Assembly (NCBI RefSeq): GCF_020382885.2
Contig: NC_058497.1
Span: forward strand, 23,800,330-23,864,329
DNA length: 64,000 nucleotides
DNA from: Scatophagus argus
Taxonomy: Eukaryota > Chordata > Actinopteri > Scatophagidae
Direction: 5' to 3'
Positions within the stretch are counted from its first letter, which is position 1; every line of letters starts with the position of its first letter. Below, piece after piece: positions 53,743 to 64,000 of the stretch. The position numbers and the translations under genes were made by a program. The notes under the pieces were generated by a model. The model saw only the letters and a list, made by a program, of their open reading frames with translations. It made no database searches and had not been told where the DNA came from.

Positions 53743-53893
53743 CTGACTCCACCTTCAAAAAAGATCTTATAACTAAAGGAAATGTGCCGCAGTCTTGATT
53801 CAACTTTACAACCTGAGCTGAGCTGACCTGCTCCTGAGACCTTCGACTCTTCTGCTTCTGTTCAGCACCAAGTGACTCACACAAGACCTCATC

Positions 53894-54529
53894 ATGGTGT
53901 CGATGGGCCGACAGATGCTGGGCTTTGTCCTGGCCATCATTGGTTTCCTGGGGACCATCATTGTGTGTGCCCTGCCCATGTGGAAGGTCACAGCCTTCAT
54001 TGGAGCCAATATTGTGACGGCGCAGGTCATCTGGGAAGGTTTGTGGATGAGCTGTGTGATGCAGAGCACAGGCCAGATGCAGTGCAAGATCTACGACTCC
54101 CTGCTGGCTCTAAATGAGGACCTTCAGGCTGCCAGAGCTCTTGTGGTCATCGCCATCATCGTCGCTGCCTTTGGGATCCTCCTGGGGATTGCAGGAGGCA
54201 AGTGCACCAACTTTGTGGAGGATGCACGTGCTAAAGCCAAAGTGGCCATCGCTGCTGGAGTCGTCTTCATTTGTGCCGGAGTTCTCATCCTCATCCCCGT
54301 CTGCTGGTCTGCAAACACCATCATCAGGGATTTTTACAACCCCCTGTTGACCAACGCTCAGAGGAGGGAGATGGGGGCTGCGCTTTACATCGGCTGGGGC
54401 ACAGCTGCAGTGCTCATCCTGGGTGGTGCTCTCCTCTGCAGCTCCTGCCCTCCCAAAGAGCCTGTTCCAGAGTACCCAATCAAGTACTCCGGTGCCAGGT
54501 CCACAGCCACAAGTCGAGCCTACGTCTGA
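53894..54529 (+). CDS. Claudin-4-like tight-junction protein (claudin G, first copy of the triplication)
   Basis: Single-exon claudin of 211 residues. First loop W47-E-G-L-W51, C54, C64, with [10 protein letters not shown]; second loop [14 protein letters not shown]; fourth helix [16 protein letters not shown]; tail [20 protein letters not shown] ending SRAYV. All family-critical residues are present, so it is likely the founding functional copy. Claudin H (58954) and claudin I (63610) share its coding sequence, the 5' flank from the CTGACTCCACC motif to ATG and, for H, parts of the 3' flank. Relative to them its 5' flank has about 44 extra bases near 53805-53848. Confidence 0.94.
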
Positions 54530-54952
54530 GAGGTGCATTTTCCTAAGACTGCTAATTATTTAACTTTTCTTTCGTAACCCTCCAAGGTTTGTCTAACTTG
54601 AACACACAGTGAGGGCTATTGTTCTGAGAAATTCTGATTTCTTTGGTGGAGGCAAGAGAGTGTGTTGAATGAGAAATGAGCACTAGATGGGAGAAATGCT
54701 GAACACAGTATGAAGGTGTGGTGTGAAACTACAGTGCTGGAAAGAAAATCTTCCAACAGAATGATGGAATGGACTGAATTATTCTCGAAAAAGCTTGTAT
54801 GAAACCTATTTTTCCTCTAAATATTTGGTATGGAAAGAAACTTGTACAGTACACACATACATTTTGAATTTACTGTATAATATATTTTATGTATTTTTTG
54901 TTTAATAGGAAGACAAAAAGACTGCTTTTGTTTACTGAAATCAGTGATTTTT

Positions 54953-58040: not shown

Positions 58041-58051
58041 TTTTAGCCTTT

Positions 58052-58355
58052 TTCTAGATGGTACTAAAAAACAAAATATATAGCCTGAGCAGGTGACCCT
58101 AGAGCAGCAGTGGGCACATCCCACTGTGTACCAATATCATCCCCATGAACCTCATAGTGGCCACGAAGTTTGAGGTCCAAGCAGCTGAAATGTCCAGCTG
58201 ATCCCGGGAATACAAGCCAGGAGCATATACCTTTGAAAAAGCATCAGCTAAATGTTAATTACAGATACGTACAACCTACCCAACATTTATTTCTTTTGAT
58301 ATTCATTGTTATAATATTCTGCTGCTCCGCCCCAGCTCCCACTCAAACACACCCC

Positions 58356-58412
<57 letters not shown>

Positions 58413-58513
58413 GCACCCCGGGGTGCTGAGAAAACCTAAGCAGGTTTTCCCATTAATGTTTGAACACCAGTTTAATTTGCACCTTATATTAGTTTCACTA
58501 CAGCATCCCCACG

Positions 58514-58560
<47 letters not shown>

Positions 58561-58595
58561 TGCACATTATTTTGTAAATAGGCTGGAAATAGACT
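58052..58595. repeat. Segmental duplicate block, copy 1, with (TC)n and (CA)n runs
   Basis: From TTTCTAGATGGTACTAAAAA onward this matches 62413-62912 nearly base for base, including AGCAGCAGTGGGCACATCCC, a (TC)n(AC)n compound microsatellite (58358-58412) and a second CA run (58517-58558). It is the far-upstream flank of claudin H, and its partner lies at the same relative place upstream of claudin I. Microsatellite lengths differ between the copies. Confidence 0.9.
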
Positions 58596-58953
58596 GGAAA
58601 GCGTAAAAACTGAGAATTGAAAATGGAAATACAGAAATTCGAGGCCTTCACCGAAAACTAACTTTTGGGTAAGAAAATGCAGTGGTTTTCTTTTAAAGGG
58701 GTCATTAAATTTGGTTGCCCGATGTTTGTTTCAGAAATGGAAACAGAACAAAATGCCCCCGTTTCTTGTTTTCCGATTTGCGTTTCTTGTTTCTGTGGTC
58801 ACGACTGTCAGCACAGCAACAACCATTTCTGACCCGTGATGACTGACTCCACCTTCAACAAAGACACCCTTATGACCAAAGGAAATGCGCCACAGTCTTC
58901 ATTCAACTCTTCTGCTTCTGTTCAGCGCCAAGTGACTCACACAAGACCTCATC

Positions 58954-59580
58954 ATGGTGTCGGTGTGTCGACAGACGCTGGGCTTTGCCCTGGCCTTCCT
59001 TGGTTTCCTGGGGACCATCATTGTGTGTGCCCTGCCCATGTGGAAGGTCACAGCCTTCATTGGAGCCAATATTGTGACGGCGCAGGTCATCTGGGAAGGT
59101 TTGTGGATGAGCTGTGTGATGCAGAGCACAGGCCAGATGCAGTGCAAGATCTACGACTCCCTGCTGGCTCTACCTGAGGACATTCAGGTTGCCAGAGCTC
59201 TTGTGGTCATCGCCATCATCGTCGCTGCCTTTGGGATCCTCCTGGGGATTGCAGGAAGCAAATGCACCAACCTTGTGGAGGGTACACGTGCTAAAGCCAT
59301 AGTGGCCATCACTTCTGGAGTCGTCTTCATTTGTGCCGGAGTTCTCATCCTCATCCCCGTCTGCTTGTCTGCAAACACCATCACCAGGGATTTTTACAAC
59401 CGCCTGTTGACCAACGCTCAGAGGAGGGAGCTGGGGGCTGCGCTTTACCTCGGCTGGGGCGCAGCTGCAGTGCTCATCCTGGGTGGTGCTCTCCTCTGCA
59501 GCAGCTCCTGCCCTCCCAAAGAGTCAGAGTACCCGGTCAAGTTCTCCAGTGCCAGGTCCACCAGCCGAGCCTACGTCTGA
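58954..59580 (+). CDS. Claudin-4-like protein, second tandem copy (claudin H)
   Basis: Single-exon claudin of 208 residues, very close to claudin G. The first-loop signature W47-E-G-L-W51, C54 and C64 are kept, and [19 protein letters not shown] is identical to G. Two normally invariant second-loop residues are changed: W138 to L (PVCLSA) and P150 to R (FYNR). Other changes include G5 to C, N74 to P and a tail shortened to [10 protein letters not shown], still ending SRAYV. Helices and frame are intact. The loss of the TM3-end tryptophan and loop proline suggests relaxed constraint or altered strand assembly. The 5' flank lacks about 44 bases present before claudin G. Confidence 0.93.
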
Positions 59581-59837
59581 GAGGTGCTTTCTTCCGAGAA
59601 AGCTAATGAGACTCAGACCTTTGCAGTTAAAATAGCACAGAGATGTGGTGTGAAACTAAAGTACAGAAAAAAAAATTCGATCGCAGTAATGACTGGGCTC
59701 AATTATTTTATAAACGCTTGTATGAAACCTAGCTTTTCCTCTAAATACTTGAGTACTGATACCTTGTGAATTCGTTGTATGTTTTACAAAATGTTGACTC
59801 AGTAGCAATGTGAAAAGACTGCTGTTGTTCAGTTTTT

Positions 59838-59843
59838 AATAAA
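59838..59843 (+). terminator. Poly(A) signal of claudin H
   Basis: TTTTTAATAAAC about 260 bp after the stop, at the position paralogous to the claudin G signal. Confidence 0.6.
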
Positions 59844-60295
59844 CTAATTAAACTAATTATGTTCTTTTGTCAAAGTGCCTTTTTTTAAATTTTCTGTTTT
59901 GCTGCCTTTTTTCGCTGTTTATATTCACAACTTTGAATACCCAAAAGGAATTTACTAGAGGATGATAAATTAAACTAAATAACAAAGAGGTGAGACCTAA
60001 TTTTGGAAGAAATATGAATGTCAGTTAATCAGGAGACACAAAGGGTATTTGATCCTCTTTGAATTGCTCTGTGAATTACACATATGTTGTTTGTCAATTT
60101 AAAAATATATATTTTGCAAGTCAAGAAAGTCCCAGTTTGTTGTTGTGAGCACAGTAAAGAACCATTCAGCTTTGCGTGAAACCCCTCAGTGAGGGTGGTG
60201 GATGAGATAATACGAAAGGGCGATCAGCACGTCTTCAGCAGTTTTAGCAAAACAGTAGCTGATTCGGTTGGGAACGAGTTTGAAGCCTGGAGGAG

Positions 60296-62117: not shown

Positions 62118-62349
62118 TTAAAGGTAGACTTTAATACAGATCAAACAACACACAGCACAGACAAAGGCCTCCTTCATGTGTGTTATCATGGTGTTGGTCA
62201 GAACCAGCATAGCGCCCCTGGTGTCACTGGCCTGTGTTGATGGGTCCTTCAGGACTGTGGTGACTTCACTCAGTCCTTGAGCAGCCAAGATCACTTCTTC
62301 TATTTTATCGTGGACTTCCTGAAGACTTGTGGAGTCCATATCTTTAAGA
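62118..62349 (-). pseudogene. Unrecognised exon-like ORF, fragment 1
   Basis: On the - strand an exon-like stretch follows CTCCTTGTAG (acceptor-like, AG at 62351-62350) and reads LKDMDSTSLQEVHDKIEEVI, then LAAQGLSEVTTVLKDPSTQA, a helical, Glu/Lys-rich region, before a hydrophobic end (CAVCCLICIKVYL) and a stop. I do not recognise the family. The composition looks like real protein rather than random sequence. The phase does not fit directly with fragment 2 at 62913-63131, so either an exon is missing or the two are unrelated. Confidence 0.4.
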
Positions 62350-62412
62350 CTACAAGGAGAGACAAAAATACACAACAAAATTGTACAATATTCACAAGTT
62401 CAGATAAGCTTT

Positions 62413-62719
62413 TTTCTAGATGGTACTAAAAAACAAAATATATAGCCTGAGCAGGTGACCCTAGAGCAGCAGTGGGCACATCCCACTGTGTACCAATATC
62501 ATCCCCATGAACCTCATAGTGGCCACGAAGTTTGAGGTCCAAGCAGCTGAAATGTCCAGCCGATCCCGGGAAAACAAGCCAGGAGCATATACCTTTGGAA
62601 AAAGCATCAGCTAAATGTTAATTACAGATACGTACACCCTACCCAACATTTATTTCTTTTGATATTCATTGTTATAATATTCTGTTGCTCCGCCCCAGCT
62701 CCCACTCAAACACACCCCG

Positions 62720-62761
<42 letters not shown>

Positions 62762-62912
62762 GCACCTCGGGGTGCTGAGAAAACCTAAGCAGGTTTTCCC
62801 ATTAATGTTTGAACACCAGTTTAATTTGCACTTCATATTAGTTTCACTACAGCATCCCCACGCACACACACGCACACACACACACACCTTGCACATTATT
62901 TTGTAAATAGGC
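62413..62912. repeat. Segmental duplicate block, copy 2
   Basis: Near-identical to 58052-58595. It carries shorter (TC)n and (CA)n runs than copy 1. It is followed by about 335 bp (62913-63250) absent from copy 1, after which similarity to the claudin H upstream region resumes at GGAAAGCGTAAAAACTGAGA. Confidence 0.9.
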
Positions 62913-63131
62913 TTATAGCTTTTCAATTTCAATGATCTTACATTGAGGAGCCTTTATCAGTCGGATAGCCGTGTGTTGTGCAGAGCATCCTCTGGTCCTG
63001 GCATGTTCTCCAAGCAAACGCAAAAAAGTGTTACCTGCCTGGAATATTCTGGCGATTTTATCTCCAATCATGTCGCTCTCCTTAAGGGTTAGCCTCTTCT
63101 TTCCTTTTAAAAGGATGAAACTCGAGTCCAT
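62913..63131 (-). pseudogene. Unrecognised exon-like ORF, fragment 2, in sequence unique to the third claudin unit
   Basis: From ATG at 63131-63129 (- strand) the frame reads MDSSFILLKGKKRLTLKESD, then MIGDKIARIFQAG, where a good donor (CAGGCAG|GTAACA, at 63035/63034) could end a first exon. CpG-rich sequence upstream (63160-63240) would suit a promoter. No family is recognised. It lies entirely in the 335 bp missing from the corresponding place upstream of claudin H, so it is either an insertion here or a deletion there. Confidence 0.4.
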
Positions 63132-63609
63132 AGTGCAGATGAATTGTTAACGCACCAACACCATTAAGGTACGCGGACGCACTGCTTTCTGCACGTCCTG
63201 CGACGCGGATCAGTCCGCGCGATTATTTATTTTATTTCCGGGCCACAGACAGGAAAGCGTAAAAACTGAGAATTGAAAATGGAAATACAGAAATTCGAGG
63301 CCTTCACCGAAAAGTAACTTTTGGGTAAGAAAACGCAGTGGTTTTCTTTTAAAAGGGTCATTAAATTTGGTTGCCCGATGTTTGTTTCAGAAATGGAAAC
63401 AAAACAAAATGCCCCCGTTTCTTGTTTTCCTATTTGCGTTTCTTGTTTCTGTGGTCAGGACTGTCAGCACAGCAACAACCATTTCTGAAGCGTGATGACT
63501 GACTCCACCTTCAACAAAGACACCCTTATGACCAAAGGAAATGTGCCACAGTCTTCATTCAACTCTTCTGCTTCTGTTCAGCGCCAAGTGACTCACACAA
63601 GACCTCATC

Positions 63610-64000
63610 ATGGTGTCGGTGTGTCGACAGACGCTGGGCTTTGCCCTGGCCTTCCTTGGTTTCCTGGGGACCATCATTGTGTGTGCCCTGCCCATGTGGA
63701 AGGTCTCAGCCTTCATTGGAGCCAATATTGTGACGGCGCAGATCTACTGGGAAGGTTTGTGGATGAACTGTCTGTTGCTGAGCACAGGCCAGATGCATTG
63801 CAAGACCTACGACTCCCTTCTGGTTCTATCTCGGAACCTTCAGGTTGCCAGAGCTCTTGCGGTCATCGCCATCATCGTCGCTGCCTTTGGGATCCTCCTG
63901 GGGATTGCAGGAAGCAAATGCACCAACCTTGTGGAGGATACACGTGCTAAAGCCGTAGTGGCCATCACTTCTGGAGTCGTCTTCATTTGTGCCGGAGTTC
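63610..64000 (+). CDS. Claudin-4-like protein, third tandem copy, cut by the window end (claudin I)
   Basis: Open for 130 codons to the window edge. Residues 1-44 match claudin H except T33S. The first loop keeps W47-E-G-L-W51, C54 and C64 but carries 13 amino-acid changes between residues 45 and 77, including I46Y, V55L, M56L, Q57L, Q63H, I66T, P74S and E75R. After that only V84A, G110D and I116V are seen up to residue 130. The start context and the 5' flank from 63250 are nearly identical to claudin H. It is a claudin by all visible criteria; the second loop, fourth helix and tail are outside the window, so function cannot be judged fully. Confidence 0.9.

Follow-up and report, generated by a model that had tools for sequence, protein, structure and literature searches.

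Replacement changes in both extracellular loops of claudin I, a recent and intact tandem duplicate of claudin H in the Scatophagus argus genome

Claudin I, a recent and intact tandem duplicate of the neighbouring claudin H, differs from its sister mainly by amino acid replacements, most of which lie in the two extracellular loops (ECL1 and ECL2). In this one genome, the pattern is probably, although with considerable room for doubt, the result of diversifying selection acting in place on both loops. The window analysed here is a 64-kb stretch of DNA (C5:23800330-23864329) of an assembly of 570.7 Mb in 48 contigs; it contains nine claudins, A-I, each in a single open frame, with A-C encoded on the minus strand and the other six, D-I, on the plus strand. 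Claudins G, H and I are named as in the first-pass annotation, and the remaining letters extend the same order. The run of claudins extends beyond the window, and 12 claudin matches, one of them weak, are located in or just past it on C5. A tree built from 19 of the genome's claudin genes places H and I as sisters (support 100), joined by G (100) and then by the gene c14G of contig C14 (94); K was left out of the 19-gene trees and the claudin-like L, being too divergent, was left out of the alignments. The features used in the comparison are collected in Table 1.

Table 1. Positions in the window of the claudin genes compared, their segments and the parts of the H/I duplication unit.
Feature	Position	Strand	Remarks
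Claudin G	53894..54529	+	211 aa; next array copy; reference for polarising H/I differences
Claudin H	58954..59580	+	208 aa; sister of I; own ECL2 changes W138L, I144T, P150R
Claudin H codons 17-73	59002..59172	+	same sequence as 53942-54112 of G; G/H conversion tract possible
3' flank of H	59581..60220		duplicated behind I (window-equivalent 64237-64869): 12 mismatches/615 aligned, 43 gap columns
Upstream part of I duplication unit	62407..62913		matches 58045-58584: 10 mismatches/506 aligned, 35 gap columns
Additional segment of I unit	62914..63246	-	333 bp, against 6 bp at the same place in the H unit; between duplicated upstream blocks
5' flank of I	63247..63609		duplicate of 58591-58953: 10 differences/363; neutral yardstick
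Claudin I, first 130 codons	63610..64000	+	single exon; runs past the window to window-equivalent 64236
Claudin I codons 45-77, second half of ECL1	63742..63840	+	16 base differences from H, of which 15 are replacement and one is silent

Over the 390 bp of claudin I held by the window, 20 base differences in 18 codons separate it from H; 19 of them fall in 17 amino-acid-changing codons and one is silent (L70). The first-pass annotation had given exactly these base counts, with 16 differences inside the 99-bp segment coding residues 45-77 and four outside it, and it was equally right in stating that W47, G49-L50-W51, C54 and C64 are the same in H and I and that most of the segment is shared without change by G and H. 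Within it, the only codons in which G and H differ are 74 and 77. The clustering of the H/I differences is beyond chance. When 30 differences were shuffled uniformly over the 754-bp ungapped H/I block, 16 differences in some 99-bp stretch were obtained in 1 of 200,000 shuffles, and CDS-only shuffles reached this value in 5 of 200,000; the density in the segment itself has a P of 5e-7 under uniform placement and of 1e-9 to 6e-9 under weighting by the sites variable in claudins A-F. The clustering also runs opposite to the pattern of the family. Among the 36 pairs of claudins A-I compared over codons 1-130, the share of replacements falling in the segment is 10-24% in 34 pairs, 48% in G/I and 79% in H/I.

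The duplication took in the coding sequence together with both flanks. The pooled H/I flanks differ at 32 of 1484 positions (2.2%, gaps excluded) and the coding sequences at 3 of 157 silent sites (1.9%); since the two clocks agree, the claudin I copy is recent. Around the upstream block of the I unit, two exon-like stretches of an unnamed non-claudin gene were recognised by eye at 62140-63140 on the minus strand, and a Pfam scan of these stretches gave no matches; the portion that makes up the additional segment in Table 1 is absent from the H unit. For the second of these exons, copies with 98% identity are present at C9:19132-19308 and C16:1501547-1501723, in addition to two partial ones on C9, which indicates that the segment is duplicated or mobile.

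The window cuts claudin I at codon 130, and the assembly gives the complete frame of 208 codons at the window-equivalent positions 63610-64236 (L009:610-1236), with no frameshift, a normal stop and the C-terminal residues SRAYV. The protein matches PF00822 (PMP22_Claudin) over residues 9-128 with 49.5 bits, compared with 79.5 bits for H (cut-off 26.7). It contains W30, G49-L50-W51, C54, C64 and R81 of the claudin ECL1 signature, and it retains W138, P150 and the C-terminal YV of a PDZ-binding end; the alignment of H to claudin-4 suggests a four-helix topology for it. The first-pass annotation had doubted a decay of this copy, and decay indeed fails as an explanation because complete claudin I is intact; the candidate reading as a pseudogene was rejected on the full open frame.

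Along the whole gene, H and I differ by 34 changes, 31 of them replacement and three silent. With ECL1 and ECL2 delimited at residues 29-80 and 138-160 after the claudin-4 topology, the replacements number 0 in residues 1-28, 16 in the 122.7 sites of ECL1, 3 in the 124.2 sites of residues 81-137, 7 in the 53.7 sites of ECL2, 2 in the 46.5 sites of TM4 and 3 in the 60.2 sites of the tail. With G as the reference, 22 replacements and two silent changes are I-specific, and seven and one, respectively, are H-specific; two replacements are unassignable, one owing to a gap in G. In the first 390 bp, 17 changes are I-specific against two (P 0.0007). Extracellular positions take 18 of the 22 I-specific replacements, against a site share of 38% (P 3e-5, with two-hit codons counted twice), and these include a second cluster, at residues 153, 154, 156 and 157 of ECL2, beyond the window; therefore, the burst involves both extracellular loops. 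The remaining three of the seven ECL2 replacements (138, 144 and 150) are changes in H. Within the ECL1 segment, replacements occur at 2 of the 15 positions invariant in A-H and at 11 of the 18 variable ones (P 0.011), so that the loop of claudin I, where the invariant positions are mostly avoided, still looks constrained. As to the sister gene, claudin H lacks W138 and P150, each kept in 16 of the 17 other claudins compared and in I, and it may be specialising or losing function.

Extracellular replacements amount to 23 in 176 sites (~13%), compared with 35 changes in 1641 pooled silent and flank sites, i.e., about six times the neutral level (P 5e-10), and non-extracellular ones (8 in 291 sites, ~2.7%) stand at the neutral level (P 0.52). 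For the full-length pair, the comparison of 31 replacements in 467 sites with three silent changes in 157 gave a Fisher P of 0.024. In a codon model, the likelihood-ratio test (LRT) against an extracellular omega of 1 yielded 41.0 with the flanks as an anchor (omega 7.2) and 18.1 without the anchor; the strong P values presuppose an even neutral rate along the gene. With a rate of their own allowed to the loops, the LRT was 4.31 (P 0.038), and omega reached 3.7 in the loops, against 3.1 in the rest of the gene; this fit therefore does not single out the loops. A three-taxon maximum-likelihood fit (LRT 35.8 against omega = 1, with a loop omega of ~49 for the I branch) was unstable because of the near absence of silent change in the loop, and it was set aside for the pairwise fits.

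Rate-free tests, which use the split between replacement and silent changes only (one-sided binomial, given as a range over transition weights), revealed a deficit of silent changes in the H/I pair (3 of 34, P 0.0123 to 0.0037 for transition weights of 1 to 3) and in the G/H/I clade (6 of 58 events, P 0.0029 to 0.0004); for the extracellular part of H/I, with 2 silent changes of 25, P is 0.059 to 0.017. The 99-bp segment alone, with 15 replacements and one silent change, gives P of 0.136 to 0.042 (transition weights of 1 to 4) and 0.18 in the Fisher test, and G/H alone (29 replacements in 466.5 sites, four silent changes in 154.5) is not significant (P 0.098). By the rate-free tests, there is moderate evidence, robust to rate variation, for dN/dS > 1; its source is the H/I pair as a whole and the G/H/I clade, not the segment alone. 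The diversifying selection put forward by the first-pass annotation is, with the excess over the neutral level and the second loop, better supported than conversion, although the replacement and silent counts of the 99 bp taken alone are not decisive. Neutral drift in the loops of a redundant copy I would agree with the neutral replacement rate outside the loops and with the two conserved residues missing from the sister H, but drift cannot outrun the neutral rate about six-fold; the silent deficits in H/I and in G/H/I, together with the intact frame, the retained signature and the avoidance of invariant sites in I, also speak against such a relaxation of constraint, which we consider very improbable.

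A short conversion tract into I from another claudin had been offered as the other explanation of the cluster. When the 99 bp were searched against the assembly, 15 places matched, namely the segment itself, G (90%), H (89%) and then 12 claudins at 75-83%; no extant donor better than G or H was found, which argues against conversion into I. A site-by-site comparison with 18 other claudin genes (A-G, J, K and nine C14 claudins) revealed no I-like run in ECL1 longer than three difference sites, and the longest such run over the whole gene, of five sites, is found in claudin C at 138-153, three of these sites being H-specific changes. With no assembly match above G and H and no long shared runs, conversion from an extant claudin was rejected. 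One might instead suppose that the donor of the loop was a claudin that has since disappeared or that the assembly lacks: a single sharp cluster in an otherwise near-identical duplicate is what a tract typically looks like, and some residues of I recur singly in other genes (N53 in several, R75 in c14b and c14c, Y46 in c14g). However, only the segment itself, G and H exceeded 83% in the search, the shared runs are as short as stated above, and the segment of I is separated from that of H by one silent change, compared with 7 to 13.5 for claudins A-F. Moreover, two separate tracts would be required, in ECL1 and in ECL2, from a donor that was itself rich in replacements, and we see little chance that this explanation is correct.

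Conversion between G and H, which lay beyond the view of the first-pass annotation, is likely from the sequence comparisons and could inflate the H/I contrast. The silent divergence of the G and H coding sequences is ~3% (4/154.5 or 5/154.2), and 53842-54556 and 58902-59607 are ~92% alike over the coding sequence and short margins, but the G/H flanks align only in BLAST pieces, mostly at 77-85% (remnants: 149/181 aligned with 139 gap columns on the 3' side and 100/108 aligned with 46 gap columns on the 5' side); the G/H coding body has therefore probably undergone at least one round of homogenisation since the older duplication that gave rise to G and H. From codon 17 to codon 73, G and H show no differences, and this clean gap of 173 bp over the loop, with 19 base differences elsewhere in the first 390 bp, has a P of 0.0002 under uniform placement and of 0.001-0.004 under constraint weighting.

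If G overwrote the loop in H at a time when H and I were already separate copies, the contrast between them partly predates the duplication; the ancestor of H and I would already have had the diverged loop, G would have replaced H codons ~17-73, and the contrast would reflect the old divergence between G and I. The clean gap is as expected from such an event, as is a CDS silent divergence far below that of most flank remnants, and the state commonest in 17 other claudins is found in I, with another one shared by G and H, at sites 45.1, 53.2 and 75.1, the latter two being sites where c14G agrees with I. Twelve consecutive informative sites at which I departs from a state common to G and H (P 0.00015) point in the same direction, though a burst in I predicts the same run. 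The loop trees do not decide the topology: in AU tests, the non-loop coding sequence clearly supports H+I (0.998-0.999, alternatives < 0.002), and the loop gives P values of 0.22-0.78 and 0.36-0.65 in two tree sets, with 0.22 and 0.36 for H+I. By outgroup majority, nine of the 16 base changes in codons 45-77 (ten with codon 33) are I-derived, which speaks against an overwriting of H. Such an event would also leave unexplained the cluster at residues 153-157 of ECL2, where G and H are alike and match the majority of the other claudins, and the G/I loop has 15 replacements in 79 sites against three silent changes in 97 (codons 1-130, P 0.0007). On balance, we regard an overwritten H loop as an unlikely source of the contrast. 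At codon 170 (TM4), G and I have ACA (T) and H has GCA (A), like most other claudins; this is one single site that misfits simple descent on the H+I tree, and it hints at further conversion in the array. A combined scheme, which we mention as a speculative one with a low probability, is a cassette system, where conversion would keep the G, H and I coding bodies near-identical at silent sites and selection would free the newest copy only in the ECL1 and ECL2 segments, so that the same chassis would carry different outward faces.

Claudin H was aligned to human claudin-4, the closest solved structure, over residues 1-205, gap-free in the first ~180. An AlphaFold model of claudin I residues 1-130 has low confidence (pLDDT 64, pTM 0.43, nine sequences) and was used for strand order only; the predicted strands are 29-37, 40-48, 52-57 and 62-66, with a helix from residue 75. 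The best matches of the model are the claudin-3 and -4 chains, and claudin I keeps the W-GLW-C-C and R81 features of claudin-4 and -3. According to the claudin-4 numbering and this model, the ECL1 changes are placed at the end of beta2 (45, 46), in beta3 (53, 55-57) and in beta4 (63, 66), and the others (72, 74-77) are around the end of the extracellular helix and the start of TM2. Among A-I, claudin I is alone in lacking Q57 and D76 and in having Y46 and R75.

The changes had been described at first pass as lying in the pore loop; they do lie in ECL1, but the label is loose, since the pore charges K65 and D68 are unchanged. The modelled pore lining of claudin-4, as given in an excerpt of PMC10556055, is formed by K65, D68, D146 and R158, and claudin I carries all four at the equivalent positions. 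With K65 and D68 untouched, paracellular selectivity, as named by the first-pass annotation, is only one possible target. In the excerpted part of PMC10970134, Q63, apparently of claudin-2, faces the ion path, and in claudin-15 the beta4 residues 60-64 form a face-to-face cis contact and the extracellular helix a side-by-side cis contact; Q63H of claudin I is located at the equivalent of the ion-path Q63, and the 72-77 group follows the extracellular helix. The net charge of ECL1 is -2 in G and H and +1 in I, a value found elsewhere only in c14c among the 20 genes compared, and the net charge of ECL1 and ECL2 together is -1 in G, 0 in H and +2 in I. Taken together, the positions and charges suggest a changed cis/trans pairing of claudin I and a shift away from cation passage, not a rebuilt pore.

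Claudin I arose by a recent tandem duplication of H with its coding sequence and flanks; under diversifying selection in place, selection would then have fixed serial amino acid changes on the extracellular face of the new copy. The targets would be, in ECL1, the end of beta2, beta3, beta4 and the place where the extracellular helix meets TM2, and, in ECL2, residues 153-157. The corresponding parts of claudins touch neighbouring and opposing molecules and shape the paracellular path; as a likely outcome, cis/trans pairing would be altered and the path would favour cations less, K65 and D68 being retained.

Fish often hold far more claudins than mammals, according to an excerpt of PMC6988351, and the same excerpt lists 56 claudins for Fugu, in tandem clusters (Loh et al. 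2004 as cited in PMC6988351). Tandem arrays are common to the clusters of Fugu and other teleosts and to the present genome, where the G/H/I sub-array is recent. Selection on fish claudins is already on record at the gene level: the part of PMC6660938 consulted reports positive selection on Cldn4 and 'Cldnd' in the placental fish Heterandria formosa, a case between species and over whole genes, whereas the present one concerns tandem duplicates and is localised to both extracellular loops. In the mummichog, as excerpted from PMC8351317, claudin-10 paralogues are expanded and tied to salinity, and diversifying selection between tight-junction transcripts of populations is cited; that case is expression-based and belongs to a different subfamily. 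For sea catfishes, the excerpt of PMC11579386 describes positive selection on prolactin rather than on claudins. A loop-restricted replacement burst in claudin duplicates was not reported in the excerpts of the open-licence PMC literature searched, and, on these partial sources, claudin I appears to be a good case of a known phenomenon. It bears on the question of how new claudin copies gain distinct jobs, being a young intact duplicate with its age fixed by flanks and silent sites, with changes mostly on the outer face and with its relatives G and H adjacent; if the selection reading is true, claudin I is expected to take a new sealing or ion-filtering job. As a lesson, loop-only claims from short duplicates call for a rate-free test and a donor search.

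Assembly-wide, there are 102 claudin matches in all, many of them exon-sized; those on other contigs and elsewhere on C5 were covered by DNA searches only and not by individual alignment. A search of viral and prokaryotic contig collections with claudin H confirmed no relatives, as expected. A second claudin array is located at C14:13928634-13959093 (L011-L014) and includes c14G, the close relative of G, H and I (L011:3259-3891, minus strand); this array possibly dates back to an ancient duplication of the chromosome or genome. Beyond the window, the C5 array ends with a divergent frame of claudin type (224 aa, L009:6691-7365), which has no GLW signature and in which, by eye, only one of the two ECL1 cysteines is in place.
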